This document shows positions 12,762 through 42,245 of a stretch of DNA of 53,149 bases, piece after piece. The DNA is from Solirubrobacterales bacterium (GTDB lineage: Bacteria > Actinomycetota > Thermoleophilia > Solirubrobacterales > 70-9). The notes below the pieces were generated by a model. It was not told the origin of the DNA, ran no database searches, and worked only from the letters and a program-made list of their open reading frames with translations. The stretch is taken from positions 1 through 53,149 of the forward strand of contig JADGPJ010000007.1 in NCBI GenBank assembly GCA_017882505.1, given 5' to 3'. A program made the position numbers and the translations under genes. Each line of letters starts with the position of its first letter. Positions within the stretch are counted from its first letter, which is position 1.

Positions 12762-12776
12762 GCAAAATGGCAGCCC

Positions 12777-18707: not shown

Positions 18708-18714
18708 CGCCGTT

Positions 18715-18720
18715 ACTATA
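18715..18720 (-). promoter_or_regulatory. Candidate -10 element, possibly leaderless transcript of the carboxyltransferase
   Basis: Read leftward the sequence is TATAGT, 7 bases before the ATG of the carboxyltransferase gene (18707). Transcription would then start at or next to the start codon. The -35 region is weak (TTGATC lies at a short 14-base spacing). Leaderless messages are common in actinobacteria, so the arrangement is plausible but unproven. Confidence 0.35.
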
Positions 18721-18791
18721 TCCAGCCTTGAATCGATCAAATGGCCAACTCTTCGACTGTTGGGTCTAATCTTTCTTGTGAGAACCCTCTG

Positions 18792-20638: not shown

Positions 20639-20654
20639 CAAAGGAGCCCCTCGC

Positions 20655-21824: not shown

Positions 21825-21826
21825 CG

Positions 21827-22429: not shown

Positions 22430-22482
22430 AATCCGCGATCCCGCATCGCGGCGACGCCGCATGGCCGCGATTTGCAGGGCAC

Positions 22483-22556
22483 GCGCCCGTAGCTCAGCCG
22501 GATAGAGCGTCGGTCTACGAAACCGAAGGTCACTGGTTCGAATCCAGTCGGGCGCA
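22483..22556 (+). tRNA. tRNA-Arg (anticodon ACG)
   Basis: Acceptor GCGCCCG pairs with CGGGCGC, with A discriminator. D-arm GCTCAGCCGGATAGAGC, anticodon loop TCTACGAA (ACG, reading CGN arginine codons) and T-arm ending GGTTCGAATCC are all intact, 74 nt, no encoded CCA. Its last 31 transcribed bases before the discriminator are duplicated near 42,215, making this the likely attachment target of an integrated block. Confidence 0.97.
22525..22555 (+). repeat. Direct repeat, copy 1 (3' part of tRNA-Arg; att-like)
   Basis: The 31 bases from the 3' side of the anticodon stem to the end of the acceptor stem recur at 42215-42245 with one mismatch (T at 22534, C at 42224). The final 21 bases are identical. 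Confidence 0.85.
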
Positions 22557-22590
22557 TTCTGCGGAATCGCCGCAAACGGCTTGGGGAATG

Positions 22591-22674
22591 GGCGGAACCC
22601 GGTCGCCCTCGGCGTTCCGCCAGTCGGCTCCCGATCGACGAGGGGATCGGCTGCGATAATCCAAGTCGGGAGCC
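22591..22674 (+). promoter_or_regulatory. Paired inverted repeats and candidate -10 after tRNA-Arg
   Basis: The 125-base gap between tRNA-Arg and the flavin-reductase-like gene holds GGCGGAAC (22591-22598)/GTTCCGCC (22614-22621) and GGCTCCCGA (22626-22634)/TCGGGAGCC (22666-22674). A candidate -10 hexamer GATAAT (22655-22660) lies inside the second pair, 21 bases before the ATG at 22682. The second pair could be an operator; no convincing -35 was found. Confidence 0.33.
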
Positions 22675-22681
22675 CTCGCCA

Positions 22682-23284
22682 ATGGAGAGACCAGCGCACG
22701 GACACGTACCGGTTTCGATCGAGACGCCCATCTGGAGTCGGTTCTACACGATCGCTCCCCTTGTGATCGTGGGAACCAGGGAGGGCGACGGGCACGACCT
22801 TGCTCCGAAGCACATGGCGATGCCGCTGGGGTGGGACAACTACTTCTGCTTCGTTTGCAGCCCCGAGCACGCGACTCAGGCGAACGCCCAGCGGACCCGC
22901 CAGTTCACCGTCAGCTTCCCTCGCCCCGAGCAGATCGTCGAGGCCAGCCTCGCCGCAGCGCCCCGGGAGGAGGACAGCTCCAAGCCCAGCCTTGCCGCCA
23001 TCCCCGTCTTCCCGGCCAGCACGGTCGACGGAGTGCTGGTGCGGGACGCCTATCTCTGGCTCGAGTGCGAGCTGGACAGGGTCGTGGAGGGGTTCGGGCG
23101 CAACACTCTGATCGTCGGGCGGATAGTGGCGGCGTCGGTGGACGAACGGGCGCTGCGCGTCTCCGACGCGGACGACGCGGACCTGATTCGCCAAGAACCG
23201 CTGCTCGCCTACGTCAGCCCCGGGCGCTTTGCCAGCGTCTCAGAGAGCTTCTCGTTCCCGTACCACGTCAACTTCAAGCTCTGA
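22682..23284 (+). CDS. Flavin reductase-like (FMN split-barrel) protein
   Basis: A 200-residue protein resembling the flavin-reductase-like FMN-binding split barrel. The N-terminal part, [27 protein letters not shown] (in two halves, about 25-51), matches the segment that binds FMN phosphate in flavoredoxin-type proteins, followed by [23 protein letters not shown], the typical switch from cofactor strand to helix. Start ATG 22682. Its TGA abuts the ATG of the M20 peptidase gene, so it begins a three-gene operon. It could reduce FMN or act on a small molecule; the precise role is unknown. Confidence 0.72.
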
Positions 23285-24451
23285 ATGGGCACGGAGGGGA
23301 GGGTCCTACTGGCCTGGCTGCGGGAGCGCACGGGCGAGATGACCGACCTGCTCGGCCGGCTTGCGGATGCCGAGTCTCCCTCTCTCGACCCTCAGGCCCA
23401 GCGCGCGGCTCGCGCGATCCTCGAACGCGAGCTCTCTGAGCTGGACCTCTCGGTCGAGCGTCTGCCCGGACGGGAGTACGGCGACCACCTGCTGGCCACG
23501 CCGCCGAACCGGCGGGACGGCGAGCCGAGCCAGTTGTTGCTCGGCCACCTCGACACGGTGTGGCCGGTGGGAACGCTCTCGAAGATGCCCGTGCGCATCG
23601 GCGACGGCCTGATCTACGGACCGGGTGTGTTCGACATGAAGGGGGGGTTGGTCCAGATGATCTTCGCCCTCCGTGCCTTGGCGGAGTGGGGGATCGAACC
23701 ATCCTGCCCCCCGGTCGTGCTGGTCAACGCCGACGAGGAGATCGGTAGCCGCGACTCGCGCAAGCACGTGGAGAGGCTTGCCCGCGACGCTGCCAGGGTG
23801 CTCGTGCTGGAGCCCTCGTTCGGGCCCGCCGGCAAGCTCAAGACCGCCCGCAAGGGTGTGGGCAGTTTCACCCTGACGGTTCGGGGCGTCGCGAGCCATG
23901 CCGGGCTCGACCCCGAGGGTGGCGTCAGCGCCATTCTCGAGGTCTCGCATCAGGTTCAGCGCCTGTTCGCGCTCAACGACTCCGATCGGGGGATCACGGT
24001 CAACGTGGGCACCATCGACGGGGGGTTGCGCCCCAACGTGATCGCGCCCGAGGCGGTGGCCCGGGTCGAGGCCAGGGTGATCTACGCCGAGGACGCCGAG
24101 TGGGTCGAGCAGCAGGTCCGCGGGCTGAAGGCGGTCGCCGAGGGCGTCTCGCTGGAGGTGGAGGGAGGCTTCGGGCGGCCGCCGCTGGAGCGAACCTCGC
24201 GCAACCGCGCGCTTTGGGAGCTCGCGTGCGACGCCGCCGCGGAGCTGGAGTTGGAGATCGGCGAGGCGCTCGTCGGCGGGGCCTCGGACGGAAACATCAC
24301 CAGCGCCTTCGCTGCGACCCTGGACGGGCTGGGCGCGGTCGGCGATGGAGCGCACGCGGAACACGAGCACGTGATCGTCGACCGCATGCCCGAGCGAGCG
24401 GCGCTGCTGGCACTGCTGCTCGCGACCCCTCCCAGCGAAAGGGCGATGTGA
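23285..24451 (+). CDS. M20-family metallopeptidase (glutamate carboxypeptidase/deacylase type)
   Basis: A 388-residue M20 zinc amidohydrolase. LLGHLDTVWPVG carries the first zinc His-x-Asp, GPGVFDMKGG the bridging Asp, and NADEEIGSRDS the catalytic Glu and following zinc Glu. A dimerisation-domain-like segment (SHAGLDPEGGVSAI) follows, and HAEHEHVI near the C-terminus provides the last zinc His. Enzymes of this group remove terminal amino acids or N-acyl groups. Its start abuts the flavin-reductase-like stop, and its stop overlaps the next start (GTGA), so all three are co-transcribed. Confidence 0.9.
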   Translation: MGTEGRVLLAWLRERTGEMTDLLGRLADAESPSLDPQAQRAARAILERELSELDLSVERLPGREYGDHLLATPPNRRDGEPSQLLLGHLDTVWPVGTLSKMPVRIGDGLIYGPGVFDMKGGLVQMIFALRALAEWGIEPSCPPVVLVNADEEIGSRDSRKHVERLARDAARVLVLEPSFGPAGKLKTARKGVGSFTLTVRGVASHAGLDPEGGVSAILEVSHQVQRLFALNDSDRGITVNVGTIDGGLRPNVIAPEAVARVEARVIYAEDAEWVEQQVRGLKAVAEGVSLEVEGGFGRPPLERTSRNRALWELACDAAAELELEIGEALVGGASDGNITSAFAATLDGLGAVGDGAHAEHEHVIVDRMPERAALLALLLATPPSERAM

Positions 24452-25455
24452 ACTCGCCGAAGACGGTCCTGGGCAGTGTGACCCGGATCGCGGACTTCGA
24501 GCGACGCCCGCCCAGGATCGAGCACCGCCCCCGAACGCAGTGGGCCACCGGAGACTTCGTGGTCTGCGAGATGTTGGATTCCGGTCCGTACCGGGTCGAG
24601 ATCCCGAGCGGGGGCTATGACACGATCGGCCTCGGTGATCGCATCATCGGGGCGTTTGGAACGCGCGCTGCGACCTTGGAGGCGGTGGGGGACTGGCGCG
24701 CAGTGGAAGACGATCTGGTCCTCGACGCCCTGACACCGGCCGGGGTGCTCGGGCGCTGCACCTCGGCTTCGATCCCTCCGCCCCCGATGGCGAGGCTGCG
24801 CTACCTGGGCCACGCGATGCTGGACGGCGAGCCGTGCACGATGGGCGGGTCGGTCGAACAGGCGCCGACACGCCGGCTCGAGGCCCCCGTCGTGCTGATC
24901 ATCGGCACCTCGATGGACGCCGGAAAGACCGTTTCGGCCGCCGCCATCGTGCGGGAGCTGTCCGGCATGGGGCTCAGAGTCGCCGGTGCCAAGCTGACCG
25001 GCGTCGGCCGCTACCGGGACATCCTGGCAATGCGAAAGGCAGGTGCCGGCTACATCACGGACTTCGTCGAGGCCGGGTTGCCTTCGACGGTCGTTCCGCC
25101 GGACGAGTTCGAAACCGCCCTCCTGCTCATCTGCTCGAGACTCGCGGCCTACGAGCCCGACGTCGTTGTCGCCGAGGCGGGAGCTTCGCCACTCGAGCCG
25201 TACTGCGGCGCCGTGGCGATGCGCCTGCTCGCGGATCACGTGCGCGTGACCGTGCTCTGCGCCTCCGATCCCTACGCGGTCATGGGGGTGATCGCCGCAT
25301 TCGGGAAGGAGCCCGATCTGATCGCCGGTCGCGCCACCAGCACCGAGGCTGGGATCGCCCTGGTCGAAAAGTTGGTCTCCATACCGGCCCTCAACCTGCT
25401 CGACCCGACCAGCGGCCCGGAACTGGCCTCCTTCCTGCGCAAGCGCCTTACCTGA
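24448..25455 (+). CDS. P-loop NTPase-domain protein with beta-rich N-terminus (unrecognised family)
   Basis: A 335-residue protein from GTG 24448 (4-base overlap with the M20 gene). Residues 1-140 look beta-rich. Residues 147-161 read APVVLIIGTSMDAGKT, a Walker A with the long spacing of dethiobiotin synthetase (GTxxxxGKT), and the following GLRVAGAKLTGVGRYRDI and VVVAEAGASPLEPY resemble the later strands of such folds. A DUF1611-like enzyme is a second possibility, but the N-terminus does not look like a Rossmann fold. The longer upstream frame lies within the M20 gene. Coupling to a peptidase and flavin protein suggests small amide or amino-acid metabolism; function not assigned. Confidence 0.78.
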   Translation: MNSPKTVLGSVTRIADFERRPPRIEHRPRTQWATGDFVVCEMLDSGPYRVEIPSGGYDTIGLGDRIIGAFGTRAATLEAVGDWRAVEDDLVLDALTPAGVLGRCTSASIPPPPMARLRYLGHAMLDGEPCTMGGSVEQAPTRRLEAPVVLIIGTSMDAGKTVSAAAIVRELSGMGLRVAGAKLTGVGRYRDILAMRKAGAGYITDFVEAGLPSTVVPPDEFETALLLICSRLAAYEPDVVVAEAGASPLEPYCGAVAMRLLADHVRVTVLCASDPYAVMGVIAAFGKEPDLIAGRATSTEAGIALVEKLVSIPALNLLDPTSGPELASFLRKRLT

Positions 25456-25621
25456 TACAGCACCGGCCACCAGGAATTCTCGGCGCCGTGCGTCCAAGCC
25501 AGATCGCCGACCGTCAGGCTACGAAACCGGCCGTTCTTCGAAAGGGACGTCGGGGCAAGTTCTTGGCTGCGAGATGAGGGCGCAGCCACAACCGGGAGAC
25601 GGGGGGCTTCTCGAAGCGGGC

Positions 25622-26152
25622 CTACTTGACGAGCTGCTGAACAGCCTTGAACTCGGGCGTCCCGGCCTTGCCGAGCAGCTCGAACAGCGCCATCTCGACG
25701 CTCGTCCGCGCGCCGCCAAGCGCGGCAATTCGCCCGATCCCCACCTCGTGGTTGGCCGCCGTACGCGAAGAGACCGCGTCCTCCACGACCTGGACCTCGA
25801 GGCCCTGGGCCAGCAGTGCCGCCGCGGTCTGGTAAACGCAGATGTGGGTCTCGATTCCGCAGATCAGGACCTGGTCGCGGCCGTTGAGGTCGAAGCCCTC
25901 CGCGTCGGTGGCGGCGAAGACGGTCTTCTCGAGGGGGGTGACGTCGGTGAGGAGCGCCGAAATCTCGGCCACCGTCGACCCCAGCCCACGGGGGTACTGC
26001 TCGGTGACGATCGCCGGGATCCCCATCACCCGGACGCCACGCAGCAGCGTCTCGATCGAGCCAACCATCTCGTCGAAGCCGGCGATCACGGGCCGGAATC
26101 CCTCCTGCACGTCGACCACCACGACTGCCGCGCGGTCGCGATCGAGCGCCAT
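25622..26152 (-). CDS. Isochorismatase-like cysteine hydrolase
   Basis: A 176-residue hydrolase of the isochorismatase fold. The catalytic triad is visible: Asp in VVVVDVQEGF, Lys in TPLEKTVFAAT and Cys in GIETHICVYQTA. Such enzymes act as nicotinamidases or other amidases or hydrolases. ATG 26152 lies 7 bases after GGAGG; a GTG one codon upstream is an alternative. It is followed downstream by a 166-base gap to the convergent P-loop gene. Its upstream neighbour reads the same direction, 149 bases away, so co-transcription is uncertain. Confidence 0.87.
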   Translation of the reverse strand: MALDRDRAAVVVVDVQEGFRPVIAGFDEMVGSIETLLRGVRVMGIPAIVTEQYPRGLGSTVAEISALLTDVTPLEKTVFAATDAEGFDLNGRDQVLICGIETHICVYQTAAALLAQGLEVQVVEDAVSSRTAANHEVGIGRIAALGGARTSVEMALFELLGKAGTPEFKAVQQLVK

Positions 26153-26300
26153 CACCTCGCCTCCGGCAAGGGGCGGCGCACCGCGGCGGCGTGATAGGTC
26201 GGCAGCCGGCCGATATGGACCTTGGTCGCCATGCCGGCAACCATAACCTCGATCGCGGGGAGTTGAGCGGGCGGTGCCCGAGCCTATCCGTCGCCAGGCG

Positions 26301-28502
26301 CTATTCGCCGGCCGTGCTGAGGTGGAAGATCTGGTGGCGGTCGAGGTGGGCGCTCCGGCCTGGGGGGATCGCGAAGGTGGTGGCCACGGACTCGACGATG
26401 GCCGGTCCGGTGATCTCGTTGCCGGGCTTGACCTCGCTGAGCTCGAAGATGTCGGTCTCGATGGCCGCGGCGGGGCCGTCCGTTTGCCACCAGACCTGGC
26501 GGCTCGCCTTGGTCGCGGGCGTGCCGGGGATTTCCTCGGCGTCGGGTAGGGCCGGCTTCTCGACCTCGACCTCCCCGAGCACGATTGCGTGGGTGACGAG
26601 GTAGCCCAGCTCGGGCGAGCGGGCGGAGCGGGCGAAGATCTTCCCGTAGGCGTCCTCGAAGACGTCGATCAGGTCGTCTACCTGCGCCGCATCAGCGATC
26701 TCGGCGTGGGGGGAGACGATCTCGATGTCGTTGAGCTGGCCGAAGTACTGCATCCGCACCGCATGGGTGAAGGTGATCGCCTCGCGCTCGATGCCGGACT
26801 TGTCGAACTCCGCCGCGACCTTCTCCTCGAGGCCCTTCCAGGCACCGGAGATCATCGTTCCGATCCCGGCCCTGGCAGGCTCGTCGAAGGCCGGCAGGAT
26901 CGGCAGGTCGACCGTCTGGTCATAGCGATACTCGAAGGGGGCGCAGGCGCAGCCGTAGGCGCTGAACCCGGCCGCCCAGGCGGGAACGAGGATGTCGCGG
27001 TAGGGCACGCCCTCGCTGTAGCCGGCGACCTGGAGCGGTCCGCCGCCGCCGTAACAGAGCAGTGCGTAGTCGGCCGGCGAGTAGCCCTTGCCGAGGATGC
27101 GGCCGACCGCCTCGTTCTTCAGCGTCTGCTCGAACAGCTCGATCACCCCGGCGGCCGCCTGCTCGACATCGAGGCCCAGGGGCTCCGCCACCTGGCGCTT
27201 CACCTCGGCGCGGGCTCGCTCGGGGTCGAGCTCGACGTCGCCGCCGAGGAAGTAGTCCTGGTTGACCCTGCCGAGGACGAGGTGGAGGTCGGTGACGGAG
27301 ACGGTCTCGAGTCCGCCCTCGGGCCAGCAGACGCCGATCCGAGAGCCGGCCGAGTCGGGGCCGATCTCCGGCCGGTTCGAGTTCGGATTGACGCGGACGA
27401 AGGAGCCGGTGCCGGCGCCGATCGAGTCGATCTTGACCAGCGGCATCGCCAGCAGGAAGCGGGCGATGTCCGGCGTCTGGGTGATCTCGAAGCGACCGTC
27501 GGTGATCAGCGCGATGTCGAAGGAGGTGCCGCCGATGTCGGTGCAGAGCACGTTTGGCAGCTCCAGCACCTCGGCGAGCCGGCTGCCGCCGACGACGCCG
27601 CCGATCGGCCCGGAGACCAGCGTTCGCGCCAGCTCCTTGGCCTCGATCGAGATCGTGCCGCCGTGCGACGCCATCACCCGCAGCTCGAAGCCCGCGCCTG
27701 AGCTCTTCGTCTTCTCGCGCACCGCCTGCAGGGTGCCGCGCGAGGGCTCCGCCGCGTAGGCCTCGATCAGCGTCGAGTTGAGCCGCGGCAGGTCGCGCCG
27801 CATCGGGTAGAGCTGAGAGGAGACGAACACCGGCACCTCGTCCCTGACTCCGTTGCCGCCAGAACCGCCCGCCGAGCCCAACCCTCGCTTCGCCTTCTCG
27901 TCCTCGACGATCTCCGCGACGCGCAGCTCGTGCGCCGGGTTGCGGTAGCTGAACAGCAGGGAGATGCAGATCCCCTCGACGCCCGCGTCGAGCAGCTCAG
28001 CGGCCGCCTCGCGCGCGTCCTCGTCCCGCAGCGGCAGCACCTCGGCACCCATCACGTCGATCCGTCCGCGCACGCCCTTCATCCGCTCGCGGGGGACGAT
28101 CTGGTCGTTGTGGAAGTGGGTGGCGAGGTGGAGCCGGTCGGAGTAGGAATAGCCGAGGTAGGTCTGGATCGCGCGCTCGATCCGCAGGTAGTCCTCCTGG
28201 CCGGCGCTGACGATGGCGCCGATCTTCAGGCCCTGGCGCGAGAGCAGCCGGTTCAGCATCGCGGTGCCGCTGAAGATCCCCGAGACGATCTTCGGGAACG
28301 ACTCCGCCGGGGTGGAGTTCCACTGCGCCAGCGCGTCCTCGCAGGAGAGCATGAACCCGACCGACTCGTCCTCCGGCGTCGATTGCGCCTTGCCGACGAC
28401 GAACTCACCCGCCTCATCGACGATGAAGGTGTCGGTCATCGTGCCGCCCGAGTCAATCGCGAGGACCCGGGGCTTGCGGACGTCGCGCTCGTCGGACCCC
28501 AT
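26301..28502 (-). CDS. Acetone carboxylase beta/hydantoinase A-type subunit
   Basis: A 733-residue HyuA/AcxA-family subunit. The N-terminal ASKHA-type motif VLAIDSGGTMTDTFIVDEAG and the later CTDIGGTSFDIALIT bind nucleotide; ACAPFEYRYDQ and the long C-terminal region match the hydantoinase/oxoprolinase family. Length fits acetone carboxylase beta (about 717). It is divergent from a gene encoding alpha fused to gamma, and together these complete the three functional parts of an ATP-dependent ketone carboxylase. The open frame extends to 28601, but ATG 28502 gives the canonical start. Confidence 0.85.
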   Translation of the reverse strand: MGSDERDVRKPRVLAIDSGGTMTDTFIVDEAGEFVVGKAQSTPEDESVGFMLSCEDALAQWNSTPAESFPKIVSGIFSGTAMLNRLLSRQGLKIGAIVSAGQEDYLRIERAIQTYLGYSYSDRLHLATHFHNDQIVPRERMKGVRGRIDVMGAEVLPLRDEDAREAAAELLDAGVEGICISLLFSYRNPAHELRVAEIVEDEKAKRGLGSAGGSGGNGVRDEVPVFVSSQLYPMRRDLPRLNSTLIEAYAAEPSRGTLQAVREKTKSSGAGFELRVMASHGGTISIEAKELARTLVSGPIGGVVGGSRLAEVLELPNVLCTDIGGTSFDIALITDGRFEITQTPDIARFLLAMPLVKIDSIGAGTGSFVRVNPNSNRPEIGPDSAGSRIGVCWPEGGLETVSVTDLHLVLGRVNQDYFLGGDVELDPERARAEVKRQVAEPLGLDVEQAAAGVIELFEQTLKNEAVGRILGKGYSPADYALLCYGGGGPLQVAGYSEGVPYRDILVPAWAAGFSAYGCACAPFEYRYDQTVDLPILPAFDEPARAGIGTMISGAWKGLEEKVAAEFDKSGIEREAITFTHAVRMQYFGQLNDIEIVSPHAEIADAAQVDDLIDVFEDAYGKIFARSARSPELGYLVTHAIVLGEVEVEKPALPDAEEIPGTPATKASRQVWWQTDGPAAAIETDIFELSEVKPGNEITGPAIVESVATTFAIPPGRSAHLDRHQIFHLSTAGE

Positions 28503-28529
28503 CCTCAGCGAGTCTAGCCCTATAGACCA

Positions 28530-28545
28530 CATCGGCCGGCCGATG
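28530..28545. promoter_or_regulatory. Perfect palindrome between the divergent carboxylase genes
   Basis: CATCGGCCGGCCGATG is a perfect 16-bp palindrome in the middle of the 97-base gap between the two divergent starts (28502 and 28600). This is the expected place for an operator controlling both directions. No regulator gene lies next to it. Confidence 0.45.
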
Positions 28546-28599
28546 AAGGATGCTCGGCGCCGCAGTAGTCTGGGGCCGACCACCCGAGAGGAGGCTCGC

Positions 28600-31383
28600 A
28601 TGGCGATAATCGAGGCGACACGGGGCCTGGAGGCTCAGGCCGAGGGGATCGGCGGGGATGGCAGGCGCCTCGACGCGATGCTCGCCGAGTCCGAGCGCCT
28701 CTTCGCGGAGACCGGGCACTACCACGGGGTCACCGACCTCCAGATGATGGAGTCCGACCCGATCGGTTACGAGAAGCTCTTCGCCCGGCTTCGCGGCGGA
28801 CTCGTCTCCGCCCGCGAGACCGCCCTCAACATCTCCGCCTCGCCGATCGTGCGCGAGCTGGGCGAGCTCTGCTTTGCCCTCTACACCCCCGAGGGCGACT
28901 CGATCGCGCTTTCGACCGGGATCATCGTCCACGTCCACACGATGTCGGACGCGATCAAGTTCATGGTTCGCAACGGCTGGGAGGACAACCCGAAGATCCG
29001 GCCGGGCGACATCTTCGCCAACAACGACCCGGTGATCGGGGATGTCCACAACGCCGACGTGCAGACCTTCGTGCCGATCTTCTGGGAGGACAAGCTGATC
29101 GCCTGGGCGGGAGGCGTGACCCACGTGCTCGACATCGGCGCCTCGACTCCCGGCGGGGTCCCGGTTGGGCCGACCAACCGCCTCGACGACGGCATCGACC
29201 TGCCCTGCATGAAGATCGGCGAGAACGACGAGCTTGCGGCCTGGCACATGCTGCGCTGTCAGAAAAAGACGCGAGCGCCGATGTACTACGTGCTGGACGA
29301 GCGCACCCGCCTCGCCGGCTGCCACATGATCCGGGAGGCGGTCGAGCGGGTGATCCTGGAGGAGGGCGTCGACCGCTTCAGGCAGTTCAGTCGCGAGGTG
29401 ATCGAGGAGGGGCGGCGCTCGTTCAAGGCGCGAATCCGCGAGATGACCGTGCCCGGCCGCTACCGCGCCTCCGCCTTCATGGACACGACCTTCGCCGACA
29501 AGCCGCAGCTCCCCGCACGGGCGCGACGCGACTTCGTCATGCACGCTCCCTTCGAGGTGCGGATCGGCGGCGACGGTGATTACGCGCTCGACATGGACGG
29601 CACCTCCGCCTGGGGCTGGCACTCGATGAACTGCACGCCCTCGGGCATGCAGGGGGCGATCTGGGTGATGTTCACGCAGACCCTGATCTGCGACGACAAG
29701 GTCAACGACGGCGCCTACTACGCCATCGAGACCAACTTCCCCGAGGGCACGATCGCCAACCTGGGAGATGCCGAGGGCTCGACCGGGATCGCCTGGGCGT
29801 TCCTGCAGCCCGCCTTCACCGGCTATCCGCGGACGCTCTCGCGGGCGCTGCAGTCGCGTGGCTTCATCGAGGAGGTGATCGCCTCCTACTCGGTCTCGGG
29901 CAACGTGATCCAGGGCGGCGGGGTGGACCAGTACGGCAACTCCTCGGCGATCATGAACTTCGAGATCGCCGCTCAGGGCATGGGCGGCAAGTACGTGCTC
30001 GACGGGACCGACACCTGCGCGGCGATGTTCAATCCCGAGGGCGACGCCGGCGACGTCGAGATGTGGGAGCTGATCTGCCCGATGGTCTACCTCTCGCGAC
30101 GCCTGAAGGCGAACAGCGGCGGCCCGGGCCGCCACCGCGGCGGCTCCAGCTTCGAGTCGCTGCAGATGGTCTGGAATACCCCCTTCTGGGAGCTGCAGAA
30201 CCTCGGCACGACGCGTATGTTCACCTCGCAGGGGGTCTTCGGTGGCTACCCGGGGTCGACCGCCTACATCCACAACATCAAGAACAACAACCTGCGTGAG
30301 CTGGCCGAGGCGGGGGAGGCCTACCCGATCGCCGACGGGCCGTTCGACGAGCCGGAACTGCTGGCGATCGAGGGAGATCGGGACCTGCGGCTGGACAACT
30401 GGACGCTGCTCGAGCCGTTCGCCGCCGGCGACCTCTACCTGTCGGTGATGAAGGGCGCCGCCGGCCTCGGCGACGCCCTCGAGCGTCCCGTCGACGCCGT
30501 CGAGCGCGACGTCGCCGAGGGCCACCTGCTGCCGCGTTTCGCCGAGTCCGTGTATGCCGTCTCCGACCGCGACGCGGCGCGCGCGAGGCGCCTCGCGCGC
30601 GCCCGCCCGGCGCGGGAGTGGTGGGCCGAGCAGAGGGAGCGCGTCCTCGCCGGGGAGATCATCGATCCGGTCAAGGTCTCCTACGCGGAGTCGATGAAGC
30701 TCTCGCCACGCTGGGCGGCGGAGTTCCGCGGCTTCTGGGACCTGCCGGAGGACTTCGAGTTCGAGATCGAGACCCCGACGGTGCCCGCCACGGTGACGAC
30801 CAGCCCGGGGAAGGTCACCCCCGAGCAGTCGGCGGCCGGGTTCCTCGCCTCCTCGCGGGTCTCAGAGGTGGAGCCGTCACGCGCCGCCGGACGGGCGCTG
30901 GAGCGCGACACCCTCGCCGCCCTGCTCGACGAGAAGCTCACGCGAGCGGAGGTCAAGGACATCCAGTCCGGCTACAAGGACCCCGACCGCTTCGAGAAGT
31001 GGGTCGACGTCCTCCAGGAGCGAGTCCCCTACGACGACCCGATCGTGCTGCCGGTGGGGGAGGGGCTGAACGTGGTCCGCCGCGCCGCCGACGGCGAGCT
31101 GGTGATCCGCTCCGACGCCGGCCACGACTTCTGCCGCTTCGACGGGAACTGGAAGATGCACGCGACGATGCTGGTGCGTGACAGCGACGAGCTGCTGGAG
31201 GAGATCTATCCGCGTATGGCCCACTGCGACCCCGACTGGATGGAGCTGCGCGAGTTCTACTGTCCGGTGTCCGGCCGCTTGCTGGAGACCGAGGCGGTCA
31301 CGCCCGGCTATCCGGTGGTCCACGAGTTCCTGCCGGATATCGAGGGCTTCTACCGCGGCTGGCTCGGCCGCGAGATTCCTTGA
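28600..31383 (+). CDS. Acetone carboxylase-type alpha-gamma fusion protein (HyuB + AcxC)
   Basis: A 927-residue protein. Residues about 1-750 match HyuB/acetone carboxylase alpha: GDIFANNDPVIGDVHNAD, PGGVPVGPTNRL, RHRGGSSFE and the long catalytic barrel. The C-terminal part (about 800-927) looks like the small gamma subunit: CRFDGNWKMHATMLVRD, then CDPDWMELREFYCPVSGRLLETEA, a Cys-rich tail that may bind metal. The length nearly equals alpha (about 770) plus gamma (about 165) of the three-subunit enzyme, which uses ATP to carboxylate acetone to acetoacetate. Start ATG 28600 after GAGGAGG. The fusion is unusual; the ketone substrate is not known. Confidence 0.82.
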   Translation: MAIIEATRGLEAQAEGIGGDGRRLDAMLAESERLFAETGHYHGVTDLQMMESDPIGYEKLFARLRGGLVSARETALNISASPIVRELGELCFALYTPEGDSIALSTGIIVHVHTMSDAIKFMVRNGWEDNPKIRPGDIFANNDPVIGDVHNADVQTFVPIFWEDKLIAWAGGVTHVLDIGASTPGGVPVGPTNRLDDGIDLPCMKIGENDELAAWHMLRCQKKTRAPMYYVLDERTRLAGCHMIREAVERVILEEGVDRFRQFSREVIEEGRRSFKARIREMTVPGRYRASAFMDTTFADKPQLPARARRDFVMHAPFEVRIGGDGDYALDMDGTSAWGWHSMNCTPSGMQGAIWVMFTQTLICDDKVNDGAYYAIETNFPEGTIANLGDAEGSTGIAWAFLQPAFTGYPRTLSRALQSRGFIEEVIASYSVSGNVIQGGGVDQYGNSSAIMNFEIAAQGMGGKYVLDGTDTCAAMFNPEGDAGDVEMWELICPMVYLSRRLKANSGGPGRHRGGSSFESLQMVWNTPFWELQNLGTTRMFTSQGVFGGYPGSTAYIHNIKNNNLRELAEAGEAYPIADGPFDEPELLAIEGDRDLRLDNWTLLEPFAAGDLYLSVMKGAAGLGDALERPVDAVERDVAEGHLLPRFAESVYAVSDRDAARARRLARARPAREWWAEQRERVLAGEIIDPVKVSYAESMKLSPRWAAEFRGFWDLPEDFEFEIETPTVPATVTTSPGKVTPEQSAAGFLASSRVSEVEPSRAAGRALERDTLAALLDEKLTRAEVKDIQSGYKDPDRFEKWVDVLQERVPYDDPIVLPVGEGLNVVRRAADGELVIRSDAGHDFCRFDGNWKMHATMLVRDSDELLEEIYPRMAHCDPDWMELREFYCPVSGRLLETEAVTPGYPVVHEFLPDIEGFYRGWLGREIP

Positions 31384-31422
31384 GAGTCCGAGGGTGGCCG
31401 CGGCGAGGTACGCTCGCCGTCG

Positions 31423-32628: not shown

Positions 32629-32730
32629 GCCCGAGGACGCGAAGCGGCCGGTGGGCTGTCGCTGACTTCCGGCCTACATACATGGCGACGCCCCAACAGG
32701 ACCACAACCCGGGCAGGAGAGGAGTTCGAC

Positions 32731-33216: not shown

Positions 33217-33223
33217 GAGCCTT

Positions 33224-33763: not shown

Positions 33764-34086
33764 CCACTTCTCCTCGCAAGCGCATCCCTGAGGTCGTTCG
33801 GGTCGGGAAGGGGCGAGAAGCGGCCGTCCCGGCGCCGGTAGACCCGGCAGGTTAGGCCGATCGCCTGCTCGGGGTCCGGCGGCTGGATGTCAATCCCGTC
33901 GACCAGGATCGTCGGCGATCCCGGGAACCCAAGGCACTCGGCATCCGCCTCGTCCTCGATCTCGATCACTTCGAGCCGCTCCTCGCCGAGGCCCAGCGTG
34001 GCCATCTGCTCTCGAAGCATCGTCAATGCCCGTTCCCACGAGGGGCACCCGCGCCACCAGAGGAGTTGGATCTCGGCCGCCACCAT
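33760..34086 (-). CDS. Thioredoxin-like protein with single-Cys active site
   Basis: A 108-residue small thioredoxin-fold protein (ATG 34086, with GGGAGA 6 bases upstream). The N-terminal strand IQLLWWRGCPSWERA has one Cys (Cys14) where a CxxC would be, and the cis-Pro loop is GFPGSPTILVDG with Cys51 and Cys80 elsewhere. Monothiol thioredoxin-like proteins of this type occur next to redoxins. It is translationally coupled to the redoxin downstream (4-base overlap). The longer frame to 34464 lacks typical start signals. Precise role unknown. Confidence 0.7.
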   Translation of the reverse strand: MVAAEIQLLWWRGCPSWERALTMLREQMATLGLGEERLEVIEIEDEADAECLGFPGSPTILVDGIDIQPPDPEQAIGLTCRVYRRRDGRFSPLPDPNDLRDALARRSG

Positions 34087-34187
34087 CGCCATTCTCCCGG
34101 GTGGCGAGGGAGAACCTGGCAGAACCATCGCCCAAAGCGGCAATTTGCATTCCCTGGAGTCCCGGCGTGCATCCCGCGCTCGACCGG

Positions 34188-35513: not shown

Positions 35514-35532
35514 TGGCTTGACCTGGAGGCTT

Positions 35533-38136
35533 CTACGGACGCCCCTCGTATGCCGCCGTGAGCAGTGAGGCAAGCTCAGCGAGCATGGGCATCCTCGGGT
35601 TCGTCCTCAGGCTCGGGTCGGCGAAGGCGTTCTTGACCAGTTCCGGCAGAGCGGCCTCGAACTCCTTGCGGTCGACGCCCGCATCGGCCAGCGAGGGGGG
35701 CATGCCGACCGCATCGAGAAGCTCGTCGACGCGGGTGAAGAGGCGCTCGCGCCTCTCGTCCATGTCCCTGCCGCCCAGCCCCAGCACCCAGCCCATCTGC
35801 GCGTACTTGGCGGGGGCCACGTAGGTCGAGTACCCGGGCGCCGGCATGAACTTGGTCGGTATCGAGGCGTTGTAGCGCAGGACGTGGGGCAGGAAGATGC
35901 CGTTGGCGCGGCCGTGCGCTATCCCGAAGCGTGCCCCGACGGAGTGCGCCAGCGCGTGGTTGACGCCGACGAAGGCGTTCGAGAACGCCAGCCCGGCAAT
36001 CGTCGCGGCGTTGGACATCTTCGTCCGCGCCTCGAGGTCGGCGCCGTCCGCGCAGGCCCGGGGCAGGGCCTCCATGATCAGGTTGATCGCCTGCATGCAG
36101 AAGGCGTCCGTGTAGGGGGAAGCGAATATGGACACGCCCGCCTCGAGAGCATGGGTGAGGGCATCGACCCCGGTGTCGGCGGTCACTGTCGGCGGCATCG
36201 AGAGGGTGAGGGTGGGCTCGATGATCGCGATGTCGGGGACCAGCGAGTAGTCGACGAGCGTCACCTTGCGCCCGCCGGCGCTGACGACGGCGGCCGGGGA
36301 GACCTCGGACCCGGTGCCTGACGTGGTCGGCACGGCCACCAGCCGGATCGTGTGCTCGACCTCCGGATAGTGGGCCACCCGCTTGCGGGCATCGAGGAAG
36401 GGAAGAGAGAGCTCCTGCAGGGTCAGCTCGGGGCTCTCGTGGAACAGCCGCATCGCCTTTGCCGCGTCCAGAACCGAGCCTCCCCCCACCGCGACGATGC
36501 AGTCGGCGCCGAACTGGCCGAGGACATCGGTGCCGGCCCGGATCTGCGACTCGGTCGGCTCCGGCTGGATGTCGGAGAAGACGTGAACGCCGGATCCGTC
36601 GAGGTAGCGGCGCACCTCGTCTGCGACCCCTCGCGCCTCGCCGTCGACGTCGGTGACGATGAGGAACTGCGAAGCCTTGACTTCACGCAGGTTCTCGAGC
36701 GCCCCGGCATTGAAGTAAGTGTCGGAGGGAACGCGAAACCACTGCGGGGGGGCCTGGCGCCGCGAAACGGTCTTCACGTTGAGGAGGTTGCGGTAGTTGA
36801 CATTGTCGGTCGTGTTCGAGCCGCCCCAGGTCCCGCAGCCGAGCGAGAAGGTCGGGGTGAGGGAGTTATAGATGCCGCCCAGGGCGCCGACCGCGGTGGG
36901 GGCGTTGACGAGGATGCGGCCGGTGCGAACCCGTGCGGCGAAGTGTTCTATCACCGCCTCGTCGGAGGCGTAGACGGCCGAGGTGTGCCCGAGCCCACCA
37001 TGCTCGGTGACCAGCTCGCAGGCGGCAACCGCATGATCGACTGAGGGTGAGCGGACGAGGCCGAGCACCGGCATCAGCTTCTCCTGGATCAGGGGGTGCG
37101 CGGCCAGCGCCGCCAGGTCGGAGGGCAGTGGCGCCAGCAGGACCTTGACGTTGTCGGCGACCTGGAAGTCAGCCATCGCCCCGAGGTTCACGCAGGACTG
37201 GCCAAGCGCGCGGACGTCGACGCTCCCGTCGGCAGCGAAGGCGAGGCCGGCGAGGGCCTCCACCTCGTCAGCGTCCAGCATGCGCCCGCCCAACCGCTCG
37301 AACTCGCTGACGACGTCGTCGTAGATCAGCTCGTCGATCACGCAGGTCTGCTCGGCCGGGCAGATCACCGAGGAGTCGAAGGTCTTGGAGATCAGCATGT
37401 CGACGACTGCCATCTCGATCTCGGCGCTGCGGTGCAGGTAGACCGGCGCGTTCCCGGCGCCGACGCTGAGCGTCGGCTTGCCCGCTGCGTTCGCCGCCGC
37501 GACCGCCTTCGGCCCTCCGGTGGTCCAGATCAGGTCGACGCCGTCGTGGTGGAACAGGTACTGGGAGACGTCAAGCGTCGGATCGGGGATGACCTGCAAT
37601 GCGTTGGGCGGCAGCCCGGCGGCCTCACCGGCCTCCTGGAGGATCTCCACTGCCCGTACCGCGCAGTCGGCGGCTCGCGCCGAGGGGCGGAAGATGATCG
37701 CGTTGCGCGTCTTCGCGGCCACGATCGACTTGAAGAGGGCGGTCGAGGTCGGGTTGGTGATCGGGACCAGCGCAAGGACGACGCCGATCGGCTCGGCGAC
37801 GTACTGGATGCCGTTCTTGGGGTCCTCGTCGATGACACCGACCGATCGCTTGTCCTTGAGGTAGTCATAGAGGAACTCGGTGGCGATGTAGTTCTTGACG
37901 ACCTTGTCCTCGAGGACGCCGAACCCGGTCTCCCGCATCGCGAGCTCGGCCAGGTCGAATGCGCTCTCCAGCCCGGCGACGACCATCGCCCAGACGATCG
38001 CGTCGACCGCCTCCTGGTCGAACCGGCGGAAGCTCTCCGCGGCTCTCTGGGCCCGATCCACGAAGCCGTCGAGGCGTTCGGCCTGGACGGCGTCGACGAC
38101 AGGCTTCGGCTGAGGCTGGGTCTGGGTGGGGGCCAT
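35533..38136 (-). CDS. adhE: Bifunctional acetaldehyde-CoA/alcohol dehydrogenase
   Basis: An 867-residue AdhE. The N-terminal aldehyde dehydrogenase domain has a catalytic Cys in DSSVICPAEQTCVID. The C-terminal iron-type alcohol dehydrogenase domain has GGGSVLDAAKAM, EVSPAAVVSAGG and the metal-binding GVNHALAHSVGARFGIAHGRANG. It interconverts acetyl-CoA, acetaldehyde and ethanol with NADH. Length is normal (about 870-890). It is the first leftward gene of a short group with the cyclase fusion downstream. An AdhE is somewhat unexpected beside aerobic fatty-acid genes. Confidence 0.95.
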   Translation of the reverse strand: MAPTQTQPQPKPVVDAVQAERLDGFVDRAQRAAESFRRFDQEAVDAIVWAMVVAGLESAFDLAELAMRETGFGVLEDKVVKNYIATEFLYDYLKDKRSVGVIDEDPKNGIQYVAEPIGVVLALVPITNPTSTALFKSIVAAKTRNAIIFRPSARAADCAVRAVEILQEAGEAAGLPPNALQVIPDPTLDVSQYLFHHDGVDLIWTTGGPKAVAAANAAGKPTLSVGAGNAPVYLHRSAEIEMAVVDMLISKTFDSSVICPAEQTCVIDELIYDDVVSEFERLGGRMLDADEVEALAGLAFAADGSVDVRALGQSCVNLGAMADFQVADNVKVLLAPLPSDLAALAAHPLIQEKLMPVLGLVRSPSVDHAVAACELVTEHGGLGHTSAVYASDEAVIEHFAARVRTGRILVNAPTAVGALGGIYNSLTPTFSLGCGTWGGSNTTDNVNYRNLLNVKTVSRRQAPPQWFRVPSDTYFNAGALENLREVKASQFLIVTDVDGEARGVADEVRRYLDGSGVHVFSDIQPEPTESQIRAGTDVLGQFGADCIVAVGGGSVLDAAKAMRLFHESPELTLQELSLPFLDARKRVAHYPEVEHTIRLVAVPTTSGTGSEVSPAAVVSAGGRKVTLVDYSLVPDIAIIEPTLTLSMPPTVTADTGVDALTHALEAGVSIFASPYTDAFCMQAINLIMEALPRACADGADLEARTKMSNAATIAGLAFSNAFVGVNHALAHSVGARFGIAHGRANGIFLPHVLRYNASIPTKFMPAPGYSTYVAPAKYAQMGWVLGLGGRDMDERRERLFTRVDELLDAVGMPPSLADAGVDRKEFEAALPELVKNAFADPSLRTNPRMPMLAELASLLTAAYEGRP

Positions 38137-38303
38137 GTCGTTCTAGGCTCAGGAACACCGTACCGGCTGGGACGCATCGTGAACGAACTTCTCCTCCCCG
38201 AGGCGCGTTTCGGAGGCAAGGCCGCCGTTGGACCTGTCTCGGATCACCACGTTCGGCGCGTTGCGGGAAGCAGTGCCTCCCATGGCCCAAGCCGTGGCCG
38301 CGT

Positions 38304-39725
38304 CTACCCGGCGCCGACCGCCGGCCGGCGCCGCGGCTTGGGCTCGGGCGGGCGCAGCTCCGAAAAAGAGCGCTTGATGCCCTCCGCGAGCACCTCTACG
38401 TCGGGCGCTGCCATGCGGTCGGCGTTGAGGCCGAAGACCATCTGGCCGGCGTACGTGACGACCGCGATGCCGATCGTGTGTCCGGCAAACAGCGGTACGA
38501 GCGGGAGGATCTCGACGAGGGGGGCGCCGAACGCGTACAACCGCTGCGGGGACGCGGGGACGTTCGTGATCGTCAGGTTGAACATCCGGGTGCCACCGAA
38601 CATCGACCGCGCGAGCAGGGCGCCGGCGAGCGGCGGTCCCATATCGGCCAGGTCGACGATCGTCTTGCCCCCGGCGCGTTGCGAACCGGCCTTGAGCTGC
38701 TCCGCGCGCTCGACGACGCGGCGGTAGCGGGCGATCGGGTCCGCCTCGGTCACCGGCAGCTCGACGAACAACGACGTCAGCTCATTGCCGAGCGCGTGCT
38801 CCTGGTCCTCTGACCGGATGTTCACCGGCACCTGCGCCCGCAGATTGCTCTCGGGCAGCGCGTCACCGCGGGAGAGCAGCAGGTGTCGCAGCCCGCCCGC
38901 GCAGAGCGCGAGCACGACGTCGTTGACCGTGCCACCAAGGCGCGTCTTCGTCGCCTTGACGTCTGCGAGGTCCAGCCGCACGGTGGCAAAGAGGCGCGTG
39001 CCGCTCATCGGCCCGTTCAGGCTCGACTGCGGCGCCCCGATCACCTCCTCGCGCACTATCAGCTCGGCGGCCGCCCGCATGCGATCGAGTGATTCGCGCG
39101 GGTGTAGCGCCGCACCGACGCCGGCCCGCGCCCCGCGCAAGACCAAGCCGGGCGAGAGCCAGAATCGGCCAGTTCCCTGCTCCCCGAGCTCCTCCTCACC
39201 TCCCTGCAGCGGCTGCGGGTGCGACGGCGGAGCCTCCGGGGAGGTGTCGAGCAGGGCGTTTCCGATGTCAACCGAGCCGACGCCATCTACGAGGCAGTGG
39301 TGCGTCTTGGTCGCCAGCGCCCAGCGCCCTTTCTCAAGCCCGTCAAGCAGCGTCATCTCCCACAGCGGTCGGTGGCGGTCCAGGCGGTGTGACCAGAAGT
39401 CCCCGAGCCACTCGTGCAGCTCGGCCTCGCCGCCCGGCGCCGGCAGCGTCGCGCGATGAACGTGGGCGTCGAGGTTGAACGCTTTTGCCGGCTCCCAGGT
39501 CAGCCACCTGAGCGGACCCGCGTGCCGACCAGACAGCTGCTGGGCGAAGCGCGGCAGGATGCCCACCCGCCCGCGCACGTAGTCGCGGAACTCGGTGATG
39601 TCCGGCGTTCCGCCGCCGGGGAGCGGATCGAAGATGAGCGCCGCGCCGATGTGCATGTGCGCGGTCTCGTCGAACTGCTCAAGCTCGAGGAACATCGTGT
39701 CCAACATGCTGAGCTGCTCACCCAT
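38304..39725 (-). CDS. Wax ester synthase/diacylglycerol acyltransferase (WS/DGAT)
   Basis: A 473-residue bacterial acyltransferase of the WS/DGAT family, which joins acyl-CoA to fatty alcohol or diacylglycerol to form storage lipid. The active-site motif HHxxxDG reads HHCLVDG (about residues 134-140), preceded by the N-terminal MLDTMFLELEQFDETAHMHIGA and the PLWEMTLLDGL motif. The C-terminal NLTITNVPASP motif is also present. ATG 39725 gives the family start; the frame upstream is a long open reading with no homology. It is divergent from the CocE-like gene; AdhE starts 167 bases beyond its stop end. Confidence 0.92.
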   Translation of the reverse strand: MGEQLSMLDTMFLELEQFDETAHMHIGAALIFDPLPGGGTPDITEFRDYVRGRVGILPRFAQQLSGRHAGPLRWLTWEPAKAFNLDAHVHRATLPAPGGEAELHEWLGDFWSHRLDRHRPLWEMTLLDGLEKGRWALATKTHHCLVDGVGSVDIGNALLDTSPEAPPSHPQPLQGGEEELGEQGTGRFWLSPGLVLRGARAGVGAALHPRESLDRMRAAAELIVREEVIGAPQSSLNGPMSGTRLFATVRLDLADVKATKTRLGGTVNDVVLALCAGGLRHLLLSRGDALPESNLRAQVPVNIRSEDQEHALGNELTSLFVELPVTEADPIARYRRVVERAEQLKAGSQRAGGKTIVDLADMGPPLAGALLARSMFGGTRMFNLTITNVPASPQRLYAFGAPLVEILPLVPLFAGHTIGIAVVTYAGQMVFGLNADRMAAPDVEVLAEGIKRSFSELRPPEPKPRRRPAVGAG

Positions 39726-39824
39726 GGCCGCTGACTCCCACTTAGCGTGACCTTGAGGTGGAACATAGCGCGCGAGGCAGGAAGCGGCATCGGCGGGACA
39801 GCGGCGTGGTAGAACTGGCTCATC

Positions 39825-42137
39825 TTGTCGAGGGGCGGAGCTCTCTGGGGCTGGTGGTGGTGGCGCTCGGCGCTGGGGTGTCTGGCGCTCGGTTGCGGGT
39901 TGCTCGCTCTGCTGCTGCCGGCCGGCCCCGCCGTCGCGGCCGCGCCGTCGTTCGAGGCGCACGGGAGCGTCGAGCAGGTCTATGCGACGGGACTGGGCCC
40001 GGGGGCGCGGATGACCCTCTTCGACCGCAAGGGTCGGAAGGTCGCGACCGAGCGGGCCGACAGCCTTGGCGGGGTCCTCTTTCGCAAGCTGGCGCCGGGT
40101 GGGGGTTACCGAGTCGGTCTCGCTTCCGGGGGGGCGAAGTCGGGTCCGCTGCGGGTCCTCTCGACCAGGTCCGCGCCGCCCAGCACCGACCTCTACAACC
40201 AGTCGATCCCGGCGAGCGGATACGGGTACCTGACCACCCGCGACGGCACCCAGCTGGCGATCGACGTCCATCCCCCGCAGGACGTCACGCACGTCGCGCC
40301 CGGCCTCGAACTGCCGACGATCCCAACCGGTCCCACCCCGACCCTGATCGAGTATTCGGGCTACGGGTACGCCGACCCGGCCGGACCGCAGAGCGGGTTG
40401 GCGATCCTCGCCAACCTGATGGGATTCACGGTGGTCGACGTGAACATGCGCGGAACCGGGTGCTCGGGTGGCGCCTTTGACTTCTTCGAACCGCTGCAGA
40501 ACCTCGACGGCTATGACGTCATCGAGACGATCGCGCGTCAGCCGTGGGTGTCGAACCACAGGGTCGGGATGATGGGGATCTCCTACGGTGGGATCAGCCA
40601 GCTGTTCACCGCCGCCACCAGGCCACCGAGCCTGGCCGCGATCGCGCCGCTCTCGGTGCTCGACAGCACCCAGACGACGCTCTATCCGGGCGGTCTCCTC
40701 AACACCGGGTTCGCGGTCCCCTGGGCCGAAGAGCGGGCCCACGACGCCAAGCCGGCATCGTCCAGCGAGGGCCAGGCGTGGGCCTACAAGCGCATCCAGG
40801 AAGGCGATCAGACCTGCAACGCCAATCAGGCACTCCACGGCCAGGCGGTGAACCTGTTGGCGATGATCAAGGCCAACAGCCATTACAGGCCCAAGGTCGC
40901 CGACCCGCTCTCGCCGATCACCTTCGTGCACAAGATCGAAGTGCCGACCTTCATGGCCTGCCAGTGGACCGACGAGCAGACCGGTGGACACTGCCCGGAC
41001 CTGGCCGAGCACTTCACCGGAACGCGGCAGAAGTGGTTCACCTTCACCAACGGCACCCACATCGACGCACTCGACCCCGCCACCTTCAACCGCTGGTACG
41101 ACTTCCTCGAGCTCTACGTCGCAAGGGAAGCGCCGATCGTCCGCTCCGCGGCGATCCAGGCCGCCGCACCGCTGATCTACCAGGAGGCGATGGGGATATC
41201 CGGGGTGACGCTGCCGCCCGATCCCGTCCAGCTGCAGCCGACCTACGAAGGAGCGCTGGCCGCCTTCGAAAGCCTGCCGCCGGTTCGTGTCCTGTTCGAC
41301 AACGGCGCCGGCGGCTCCTCGCCCGGAAAGCCCTACCCCGGCTTCGAGCAATCCTTCAGCGAGTTCCCGATCCCGGGCGTCGAAGCCCATGCCTGGTACC
41401 TCTCGACCGGGGGCGGCCTGCGCGGCAATCCGCCGGGCCGCCCGCATGCCGACGCGTTCACCTGGAACTCGCACTCCCTGCCGATGACCGACTTCAGCGG
41501 CGACACCGCCTCGGGCTCCGGCGGCCTCTGGACCGCCGCGCCCGCCTACGAATGGGCACAGAACCCAGCGGGCAGCGCGGTCTCCTACCTGACCGCTCCG
41601 CTGCCCGGGAACACGACGGTGATCGGCGCCGGAGCCGTGCAGCTCTGGGTCCGCTCCTCTGTCCCCAACGTCGACCTTCAGGCGACGATCAGCGAGGTCA
41701 GGCCCGACGGTCTGGAGACCTTCGTGCAGAACGGCTGGGTGCGGGGCGACGAGCGCAAGCTCGACCCTGGCAAGAGCACCCCGCTGGAGCCCGTGCTGAG
41801 CCTGCGGAAGTCCGACGTGTCCCCGCTCCCGCCCGACCACTTCGTCAAGGTCACGATCCCGCTCTACTACGAGGGTCACGCCTACCGTGCGGGCTCGCGG
41901 ATCCGGGTGACGATCGCCGCCCCCAACGGCACCCAGCCGATCTGGGCCTTTGCTCACAGCCAGCCGAAGGGGACCGCGAAGGTCGCGATCGCCTACTCGA
42001 AGCGGATGCCCTCGAAGCTCGTCCTCCCGGTCGTGCCCGGGGTGGAAGTGCCGACCGGCCTGCCGCCGTGCCCGGGCCTGAGGGGGGAGCCGTGCCGCGG
42101 CTACCAGCCCTACGTCAACCGGGCGGGCAAGCCCTGA
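39825..42137 (+). CDS. Secreted CocE/NonD-family (X-Pro peptidase-like) hydrolase
   Basis: A 770-residue alpha/beta-hydrolase. An N-terminal signal peptide is likely: basic MSRGGALWGWWWWRSA then a hydrophobic core and an AVA-like cleavage region (about 24-36). The hydrolase core shows DVNMRGTGCSGG, the nucleophile elbow GMMGISYGG (Ser) and a C-terminal beta-rich galactose-binding-like domain (VQLWVRSSVPNVDLQATI, IRVTIAAPNGT). It is likely exported and hydrolyses esters or peptides. TTG start at 39825; no closer start is credible. Divergent from WS/DGAT. Confidence 0.87.
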   Translation: MSRGGALWGWWWWRSALGCLALGCGLLALLLPAGPAVAAAPSFEAHGSVEQVYATGLGPGARMTLFDRKGRKVATERADSLGGVLFRKLAPGGGYRVGLASGGAKSGPLRVLSTRSAPPSTDLYNQSIPASGYGYLTTRDGTQLAIDVHPPQDVTHVAPGLELPTIPTGPTPTLIEYSGYGYADPAGPQSGLAILANLMGFTVVDVNMRGTGCSGGAFDFFEPLQNLDGYDVIETIARQPWVSNHRVGMMGISYGGISQLFTAATRPPSLAAIAPLSVLDSTQTTLYPGGLLNTGFAVPWAEERAHDAKPASSSEGQAWAYKRIQEGDQTCNANQALHGQAVNLLAMIKANSHYRPKVADPLSPITFVHKIEVPTFMACQWTDEQTGGHCPDLAEHFTGTRQKWFTFTNGTHIDALDPATFNRWYDFLELYVAREAPIVRSAAIQAAAPLIYQEAMGISGVTLPPDPVQLQPTYEGALAAFESLPPVRVLFDNGAGGSSPGKPYPGFEQSFSEFPIPGVEAHAWYLSTGGGLRGNPPGRPHADAFTWNSHSLPMTDFSGDTASGSGGLWTAAPAYEWAQNPAGSAVSYLTAPLPGNTTVIGAGAVQLWVRSSVPNVDLQATISEVRPDGLETFVQNGWVRGDERKLDPGKSTPLEPVLSLRKSDVSPLPPDHFVKVTIPLYYEGHAYRAGSRIRVTIAAPNGTQPIWAFAHSQPKGTAKVAIAYSKRMPSKLVLPVVPGVEVPTGLPPCPGLRGEPCRGYQPYVNRAGKP

Positions 42138-42214
42138 CGGCCCGTTCTCCCGCCCGATCCAGGTGGCCGTGAATTGACCAGGGAGCCGGGACCGCGGTGG
42201 AGGTGAGGGACGCT

Positions 42215-42245
42215 GAAGGTCACCGGTTCGAATCCAGTCGGGCGC
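42215..42245 (+). repeat. Direct repeat, copy 2 (tRNA-Arg 3' fragment; att-like)
   Basis: These 31 bases match 22525-22555 with one mismatch. There is no 5' half of a tRNA upstream (the GCGCCCGTAGCTCAG segment is absent), so it is a fragment, not a gene. It overlaps the 3' end of the convergent LacI-type gene. Confidence 0.85.

Follow-up and report, generated by a model that had tools for sequence, protein, structure and literature searches.

A displaced tRNA-Arg(ACG) 3' end in a Solirubrobacterales bacterium as the probable scar of an old integration at a family-wide hotspot

In a 53,149-nucleotide stretch of the draft genome of a Solirubrobacterales bacterium (assembly GCA_017882505.1, contig JADGPJ010000007.1; hereafter the window), the 3' part of an intact tRNA-Arg(ACG) gene recurs 19.7 kb away, with metabolic genes in between. 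This layout raises the question of whether the interval is a genomic island that has lost its integrase, as an earlier note on this DNA had proposed, or whether the repeat records a different history. Our analysis indicates that the second copy is probably the worn far attachment (att) scar of an old integration at a tRNA gene that is an active hotspot in the host's family, and that the interval was rebuilt piecemeal. Genomes, contigs and loci are designated below by G, C and L numbers, respectively.

tRNA-Arg(ACG) 3' ends in the window and in the family

A pattern search allowing up to three mismatches found two sites in the window, both on the same strand, at 22525-22555 (no mismatch) and 42215-42245 (one mismatch), and 100 dinucleotide shuffles of the window gave no match to the 31-base pattern. 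A repeat search lengthened the match to 35 nt (94% identity). The distal copy corresponds to tRNA positions 43-73, that is, the T arm and the 3' acceptor strand, and has no tRNA 5' half; its mismatch is a T to C change that would break a T-stem pair. The repeat is therefore confirmed as the earlier note had described it, and the block has an intact tRNA at one end and a same-strand 3' fragment at the other, as a tRNA island does. The host genome (2.63 Mb in 127 contigs, 93% complete) holds one further copy, a perfect 37-nt match to tRNA positions 37-73 at the beginning of contig C68 (L016:23-59), whereas the other matches are weaker and look like other tRNAs; the fragment is thus not scattered over many unrelated places. 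The C68 copy was considered as the distal end of this array and rejected because synteny places it upstream of tRNA-Arg, inverted and near tRNA-Ser(TGA): the C68 Mrp gene has its counterpart ~15-41 kb upstream of tRNA-Arg in G002, G003, G006, G008, and G009, and C68 genes border the left part of the window in relatives.

A search with the tRNA and its leader was made in the host genome and 60 relatives. Many genomes of the same family carry, among the matches listed, the tRNA plus additional 3'-only pieces. Counted by pattern in 50 family genomes, the 3' core was present at least once in 43 and at least twice in 21, with the highest counts in G032 (14, including tRNA-Arg and one near-full-length tRNA-like match) and G021 (8). 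On the tRNA-bearing stretches that were fetched, all 29 fragments, that of the window among them, share the strand of the tRNA; these stretches are mainly downstream DNA, and this count is thus silent on fragment position. In the whole-genome census, copies that share a contig with the tRNA lie downstream of it, also in the one-contig genome G014. For tyrosine integrases that cross over in the anticodon loop, displaced fragments usually start there; 66 of the 70 listed fragments begin at tRNA positions 27-37, in the anticodon loop or its 5' stem, with a filter that allowed starts up to 45. At least one fragment with a T-stem allele that differs from that of the tRNA, yet is internally paired, was present in 5 of the 20 genomes that have both tRNA and fragment (G005, G008, G010, G032, and G073), the pattern expected if the 3' half of the tRNA came with the incoming element. 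In G005 and G010 this is the only fragment, and it lies on the tRNA's own contig. In one G032 fragment (L162:4949-4990) the two sides of the T stem look as if drawn from different tRNA alleles, possibly a recombinant, and in G012, where the tRNA itself is on C2, a fragment on C4 (L100:19918-19963) is accompanied by a short integrase gene.

The tRNA-Ser(GCT) control gave no 3'-only fragments in the family among the matches listed. A second Ser pattern, which also matches other tRNA-Ser genes, gave repeated copies in G029, G022, and G028, and other tRNAs may therefore also be array sites; these repeated tRNA-Ser 3' ends (G029:C18, G022:C29, and G028:C46, spread across several kb in the first two genomes) perhaps mark a second one. 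A scan of 84,980 species for the fragment core lacking the tRNA 5' side returned 11 loci, assigned to Solirubrobacterales (4), Thermoleophilia (5), and Actinomycetota (2). Two exact core-pattern scans of viral contigs, which diverged sites would escape, gave no match.

Units and unit ends at tRNA-Arg(ACG)

Forty-seven closed units were delimited, the window's included, ranging from 170 bp to 21.5 kb with a median of 3.2 kb, and a tyrosine integrase is present in six. One of the integrase-bearing units (G019:C113:24 to 5131) begins at a different tRNA, probably Glu, and has a partial right fragment; without it there are 46 closed units, five with an integrase. Integrases inside tRNA-Arg-bounded units occur in G005, G007, G010, G021, and G036, and in G040 an integrase directly follows tRNA-Arg. 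Border fragments are short or weak in G022:C28, G068:C1, and G019:5131, and G032:C97, with fragments on both strands, was excluded from the unit table. Apart from the window's proteins and 18 of the large G004 unit, 139 unit proteins were listed, and 136 were scanned against families. Pfam matches include six integrases, three PIN proteins, two MazF-like proteins, and one DNA methylase, together with small helix-turn-helix proteins (up to 8 per family); the first unit of G003 encodes SacI-type and Vsr endonucleases. The longest unit, 21.5 kb at tRNA-Arg in G004, a member of the window's genus, has no detected integrase, and both of its ends match ends from other genomes. Ten of its 19 called genes were scanned, giving an aldehyde dehydrogenase, an iron-type alcohol dehydrogenase (Fe-ADH), a proline racemase, a dehydratase, a P450, and a GMC oxidoreductase. 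Two G032 loci (L060 and L163) contain units of 170-181 bp between two tRNA-Arg 3' copies, with repeated motifs only and no called gene, and in G014 (L051, 9309-16146) two adjoining ~3.4-kb units carry gene pairs that appear paralogous by eye, possibly a unit duplication.

Unit ends were compared between genomes. The collection held 96 left and 70 right ends, of which 94 and 66, respectively, were long enough to test. When matched to other genomes, 43 of the 94 left ends and 30 of the 66 right ends passed the 99th percentile set by random windows, and when matched to other genera, 11 left and 13 right ends passed the null 99th percentile; most matches lie within a genus, so the likeness could partly be common descent. 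The left ends of G007, G010, and one G019 unit have common motifs at similar distances, and the right ends of these units have paired short motifs. Both ends of an integrase-less 1.2-kb unit in G003 match those of an integrase-bearing unit in G007 above the null maximum. The relatives thus display two features of accretion by cis-mobilizable elements (CIMEs): tandem same-strand att copies lie downstream of the target gene, and at least some integrase-less units, most clearly that of G003, keep the ends of integrase-bearing elements. Because of the multicopy 3' cores, the same-strand fragments, the integrase-bearing units, and the recurring unit ends, tRNA-Arg(ACG) is, as judged from sequence comparison, an integration hotspot with tandem accretion in the host's family.

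Composition and history of the block

The features of the block and its surroundings are given in Table 1. Genes were called with a simple in-house caller that is unreliable where opposite frames overlap, and the block genes were checked with Pfam, which also placed a redoxin gene within the block.

Table 1. Positions of the tRNA copies, the block between them, and flanking features in the window
Feature	Position	Strand	Source or remark
Interval of ~12 kb between thioesterase gene and tRNA-Arg	10316..22482	.	
Intact tRNA-Arg(ACG), presumed attB or regenerated tRNA	22483..22556	+	ARAGORN, Rfam
Duplicated tRNA 3' part (tRNA positions 43-73)	22525..22555	+	Pattern search
Block between both copies, mosaic	22557..42214	.	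No integrase found; native composition
Flavin reductase-like protein	22682..23284	+	Pfam
M20 peptidase	23285..24451	+	Pfam
DUF1611-type protein	24448..25455	+	Pfam, weak match
Isochorismatase-family protein	25622..26155	-	Pfam
HyuA (hydantoinase/oxoprolinase, acetone carboxylase-type)	26301..28601	-	Within 5.1-kb piece common to G019
HyuB and acetone carboxylase gamma domain, single frame	28603..31383	+	94% protein identity to G019
Acyl-CoA dehydrogenase	31423..32628	+	Pfam
AdhE-like aldehyde/alcohol dehydrogenase	35533..38136	-	Pfam
Wax ester synthase/DGAT	38304..39734	-	Pfam; start estimated within longer open frame
S15 peptidase	39825..42137	+	Pfam
Displaced tRNA 3' end copy, presumed relict att scar	42215..42245	+	Pattern search; one mismatch, T stem
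LacI-type regulator, frame ends within tRNA copy	42220..43263	-	

The 5-kb chunks of the block fall at tetranucleotide percentiles 51-70 relative to 70 chunks of the host genome, and their GC content is likewise native. The composition check suggested by the earlier note therefore returned no foreign signature, and composition is rejected as evidence of a foreign origin, since the block equals the sample of its own genome. The individual genes point in different directions. The hyuA-hyuB pair is 91.2% identical at the DNA level to G019, which belongs to another genus, over 5,108 bp, and the match stops on either side of the two genes; between the host genome and G019, backbone pieces of more than 300 bp (six in all) are 75-89% identical, and HyuB copies within the host's own genus reach 64% identity at best. 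On this pattern of identities, hyuA-hyuB is best read as a separately exchanged 5.1-kb piece whose partner is another genus. The HyuB frame with the gamma domain has two more copies in the host genome, on C79 and C90, at 62-63% identity. AdhE found matches of only 30-40% identity, in 10 of 40 relatives and mostly to its C-terminal half. Orthologs of the S15 peptidase occur in 7 of 11 congeners (84% identity in G001 and 73-76% in G003, G006, G007, G008, G009, and G011), and in 6 of these 7 the gene is on a different contig from tRNA-Arg, G011 having no full tRNA-Arg among the matches listed. By this distribution the S15 peptidase is predicted to be a resident gene of the genus. The pieces of the block have different histories, and the block looks like a mosaic, a worn patchwork rather than one intact island.

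The two flanks also differ from those of congeners in gene order. On the right, the LacI-type regulator has a tail that is absent from five relatives. The operon of LacI, arginase, nitrilase, and permease is kept in G003 and G006 (79-88% identity for LacI and arginase), and the LacI-linked arginase (at least 70% identity) is on a different contig from tRNA-Arg in all seven relatives that have it, the tRNA-Arg contigs being taken from among the matches listed. On the left, the thioesterase gene stands directly before tRNA-Arg, or with one ABC gene between, in five congeners, and the spacing is ~1.7 to 3.8 kb in G001, G002, and G009. No tRNA fragment was found at the edge of the corresponding interval of the window, 10316-22482, in which the segment 17184-18663 is 80% identical to contig C79 of the same genome. 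The DNA that follows tRNA-Arg differs in the relatives compared.

Origin of the repeat

We propose that an incoming element with a tyrosine integrase would have recombined at the anticodon loop of tRNA-Arg(ACG), bringing a new tRNA 3' half and pushing the old one to the far end of the element. Repeated integration would build tandem arrays in which most units have no integrase of their own, and the copy at 42215-42245 would be the worn far end of one old event. Later losses would have included the integrase, the sequences of the element ends, and half of the displaced tRNA fragment, and the interval would have been rebuilt by the 5.1-kb hyuA-hyuB exchange and would now hold the resident S15 peptidase gene and an AdhE gene that has no congeneric ortholog. 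The action of an integrase at this exact site in this lineage is one that we infer from its relatives, and what was lost and in which order is likewise deduced. The copy does look like an integrase-type scar, as the earlier note had suggested, since this tRNA serves the whole family as an integration hotspot, at which units with and without an integrase occur.

Several observations weigh against this account. The half of the tRNA with the anticodon loop, the usual crossover region and a part that a displaced island end would be expected to carry, is missing from the 42215 copy. A six-frame search of window frames of at least 40 amino acids with an integrase profile, at E values up to 1, found no integrase remnant; of seven other loci, the profile recovered the four that have a known integrase, which had helped to build it. 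The Pfam scan of the called block genes likewise gave no integrase, which bears out the integrase absence reported by the earlier note, and PF00589 has five matches in the host genome, three of them on C108, C20, and C69. No empty or alternative allele of the exact site was seen in the relatives compared, none of which is strain-level. Fifteen of the 20 genomes have no differing paired fragment allele (the same or a broken allele instead), so allele exchange is visible in only a minority. The block also lacks the two recognizable ends of a CIME: scored against the unit ends of other genomes, it reached at best 14.5 on the left (95th percentile of the null, 16.5) and 14.0 on the right (15.8). 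When four stretches had earlier been compared with the full set of ends on either strand, weak matches, uncorrected for four tests, came only from the left end of the block (P = 0.023) and from the DNA beyond the copy, starting at 42246 (P = 0.020, on the opposite strand); the right end of the block and the C68 flank had no match. Intact unit ends in the window are thus unsupported by the ends of other genomes, the weak matches being suggestive at most.

The main alternative, that a single 19.7-kb metabolic island (a CIME) entered whole and has since lost its integrase while both att sites survived, accounts directly for the tRNA with its displaced 3' end. It finds a parallel in the 21.5-kb metabolic unit of the congener G004, which has ends matching other genomes and no detected integrase, and it would also suit AdhE, with matches of just 30-40% in the 40 relatives. 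We consider it unlikely, given the native tetranucleotide and GC composition, the absence of unit-end sequences from the block, an S15 peptidase that belongs to the genus, a hyuA-hyuB exchange that spans 5.1 kb only, and a LacI operon that, in all 7 relatives that have it, does not share a contig with tRNA-Arg. Where the earlier note had left open entry as a unit or in steps, the stepwise part is upheld by the hyuA-hyuB exchange and a unitary island at 22557-42214 is not. Rather less probable is that an ectopic or rearranged att copy was moved beside the LacI operon by inversion or translocation, with the 19.7-kb distance incidental. Copies away from the tRNA do exist, on C4 of G012 and on C68 of the host, and the gene order of both flanks departs from that of congeners; against this, a same-strand position 20 kb downstream is improbable by chance in 2.6 Mb (roughly 0.4%, an estimate), and in relatives, copies as a rule lie downstream on the tRNA strand. 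That the genome is a 127-contig draft leaves chance similarity or an assembly artefact as a formal explanation, which we regard as highly implausible given the absence of matches in the shuffles and the same arrays in the one-contig genome G014. The old, worn integration scar is the simplest account and the reading that we favor.

A broader interpretation, which we put forward only tentatively, is that the scar is a fossil of a family-wide system of tRNA-anchored cassettes, in which a few integrase lineages would act in trans to move integrase-less units at tRNA-Arg(ACG). Such units would span ~170 bp to >20 kb, among them toxin-antitoxin units of 1 kb and one restriction-modification unit, and would have ends with repeated motifs, in an integron-like layout on tRNA att sites. 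Integron cassette arrays have same-oriented site repeats, mostly without an integrase in each unit, and carry toxin-antitoxin cargo. The sites seen in the family arrays differ: each is a straight copy of the 3' half of the tRNA, with motifs beside it, rather than an attC palindrome.

Among described systems, the islands at ssrA in Dehalococcoides are arranged in tandem downstream of one RNA gene and bounded by direct repeats of its 3' end (PMC3146451). According to the portion of that report consulted, 16 of the 31 islands have an integration module and 15 do not, the latter being perhaps cis-mobilizable in its authors' view, and the cargo is metabolic; the system uses ssrA and a serine recombinase, whereas the family studied here uses tRNA-Arg(ACG) and tyrosine integrases, with units down to 170 bp. 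CIMEs and tandem accretion, in the account consulted (PMC5704250), involve integrase-less units bounded by att sites and stacked at the 3' end of a target gene. The arrays of the relatives have the same stacked layout; the window block has no recognizable ends, and mobilization here is only putative. "Ca. Methylopumilus" has an additive flexible island with recurring 20-bp tRNA-Lys 3' repeats bounding islands of 330 bp to 42 kb (PMC10872708); it differs in the tRNA and the bacterial group, and conserved unit ends do not figure in the description compared. Islander, in the part consulted, catalogs tRNA islands of tyrosine integrases with a regenerated target at one end and a displaced fragment at the other (PMC4383910); integration there is by tyrosine integrases, and none was found in the window block. 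Since the ssrA, CIME, and tRNA-Lys systems show the same arrangement, the family arrays thus appear to belong to an already described type, tandem islands bounded by RNA-gene 3' repeats, of which this instance is new: in literature searches for this group, none of the papers listed, PMC9903846 included, was seen to report such tRNA-Arg arrays.

These results explain the repeat and point to a single tRNA gene as one storage place for variable genes in the family, where tRNA-Arg(ACG) gathers restriction-modification, toxin-antitoxin, and catabolic units. They also caution against delimiting an island by a tRNA scar alone, since a patchwork of native composition lies between the copies here. The small integrase-less units with recurring ends open mobilization in trans to direct test.

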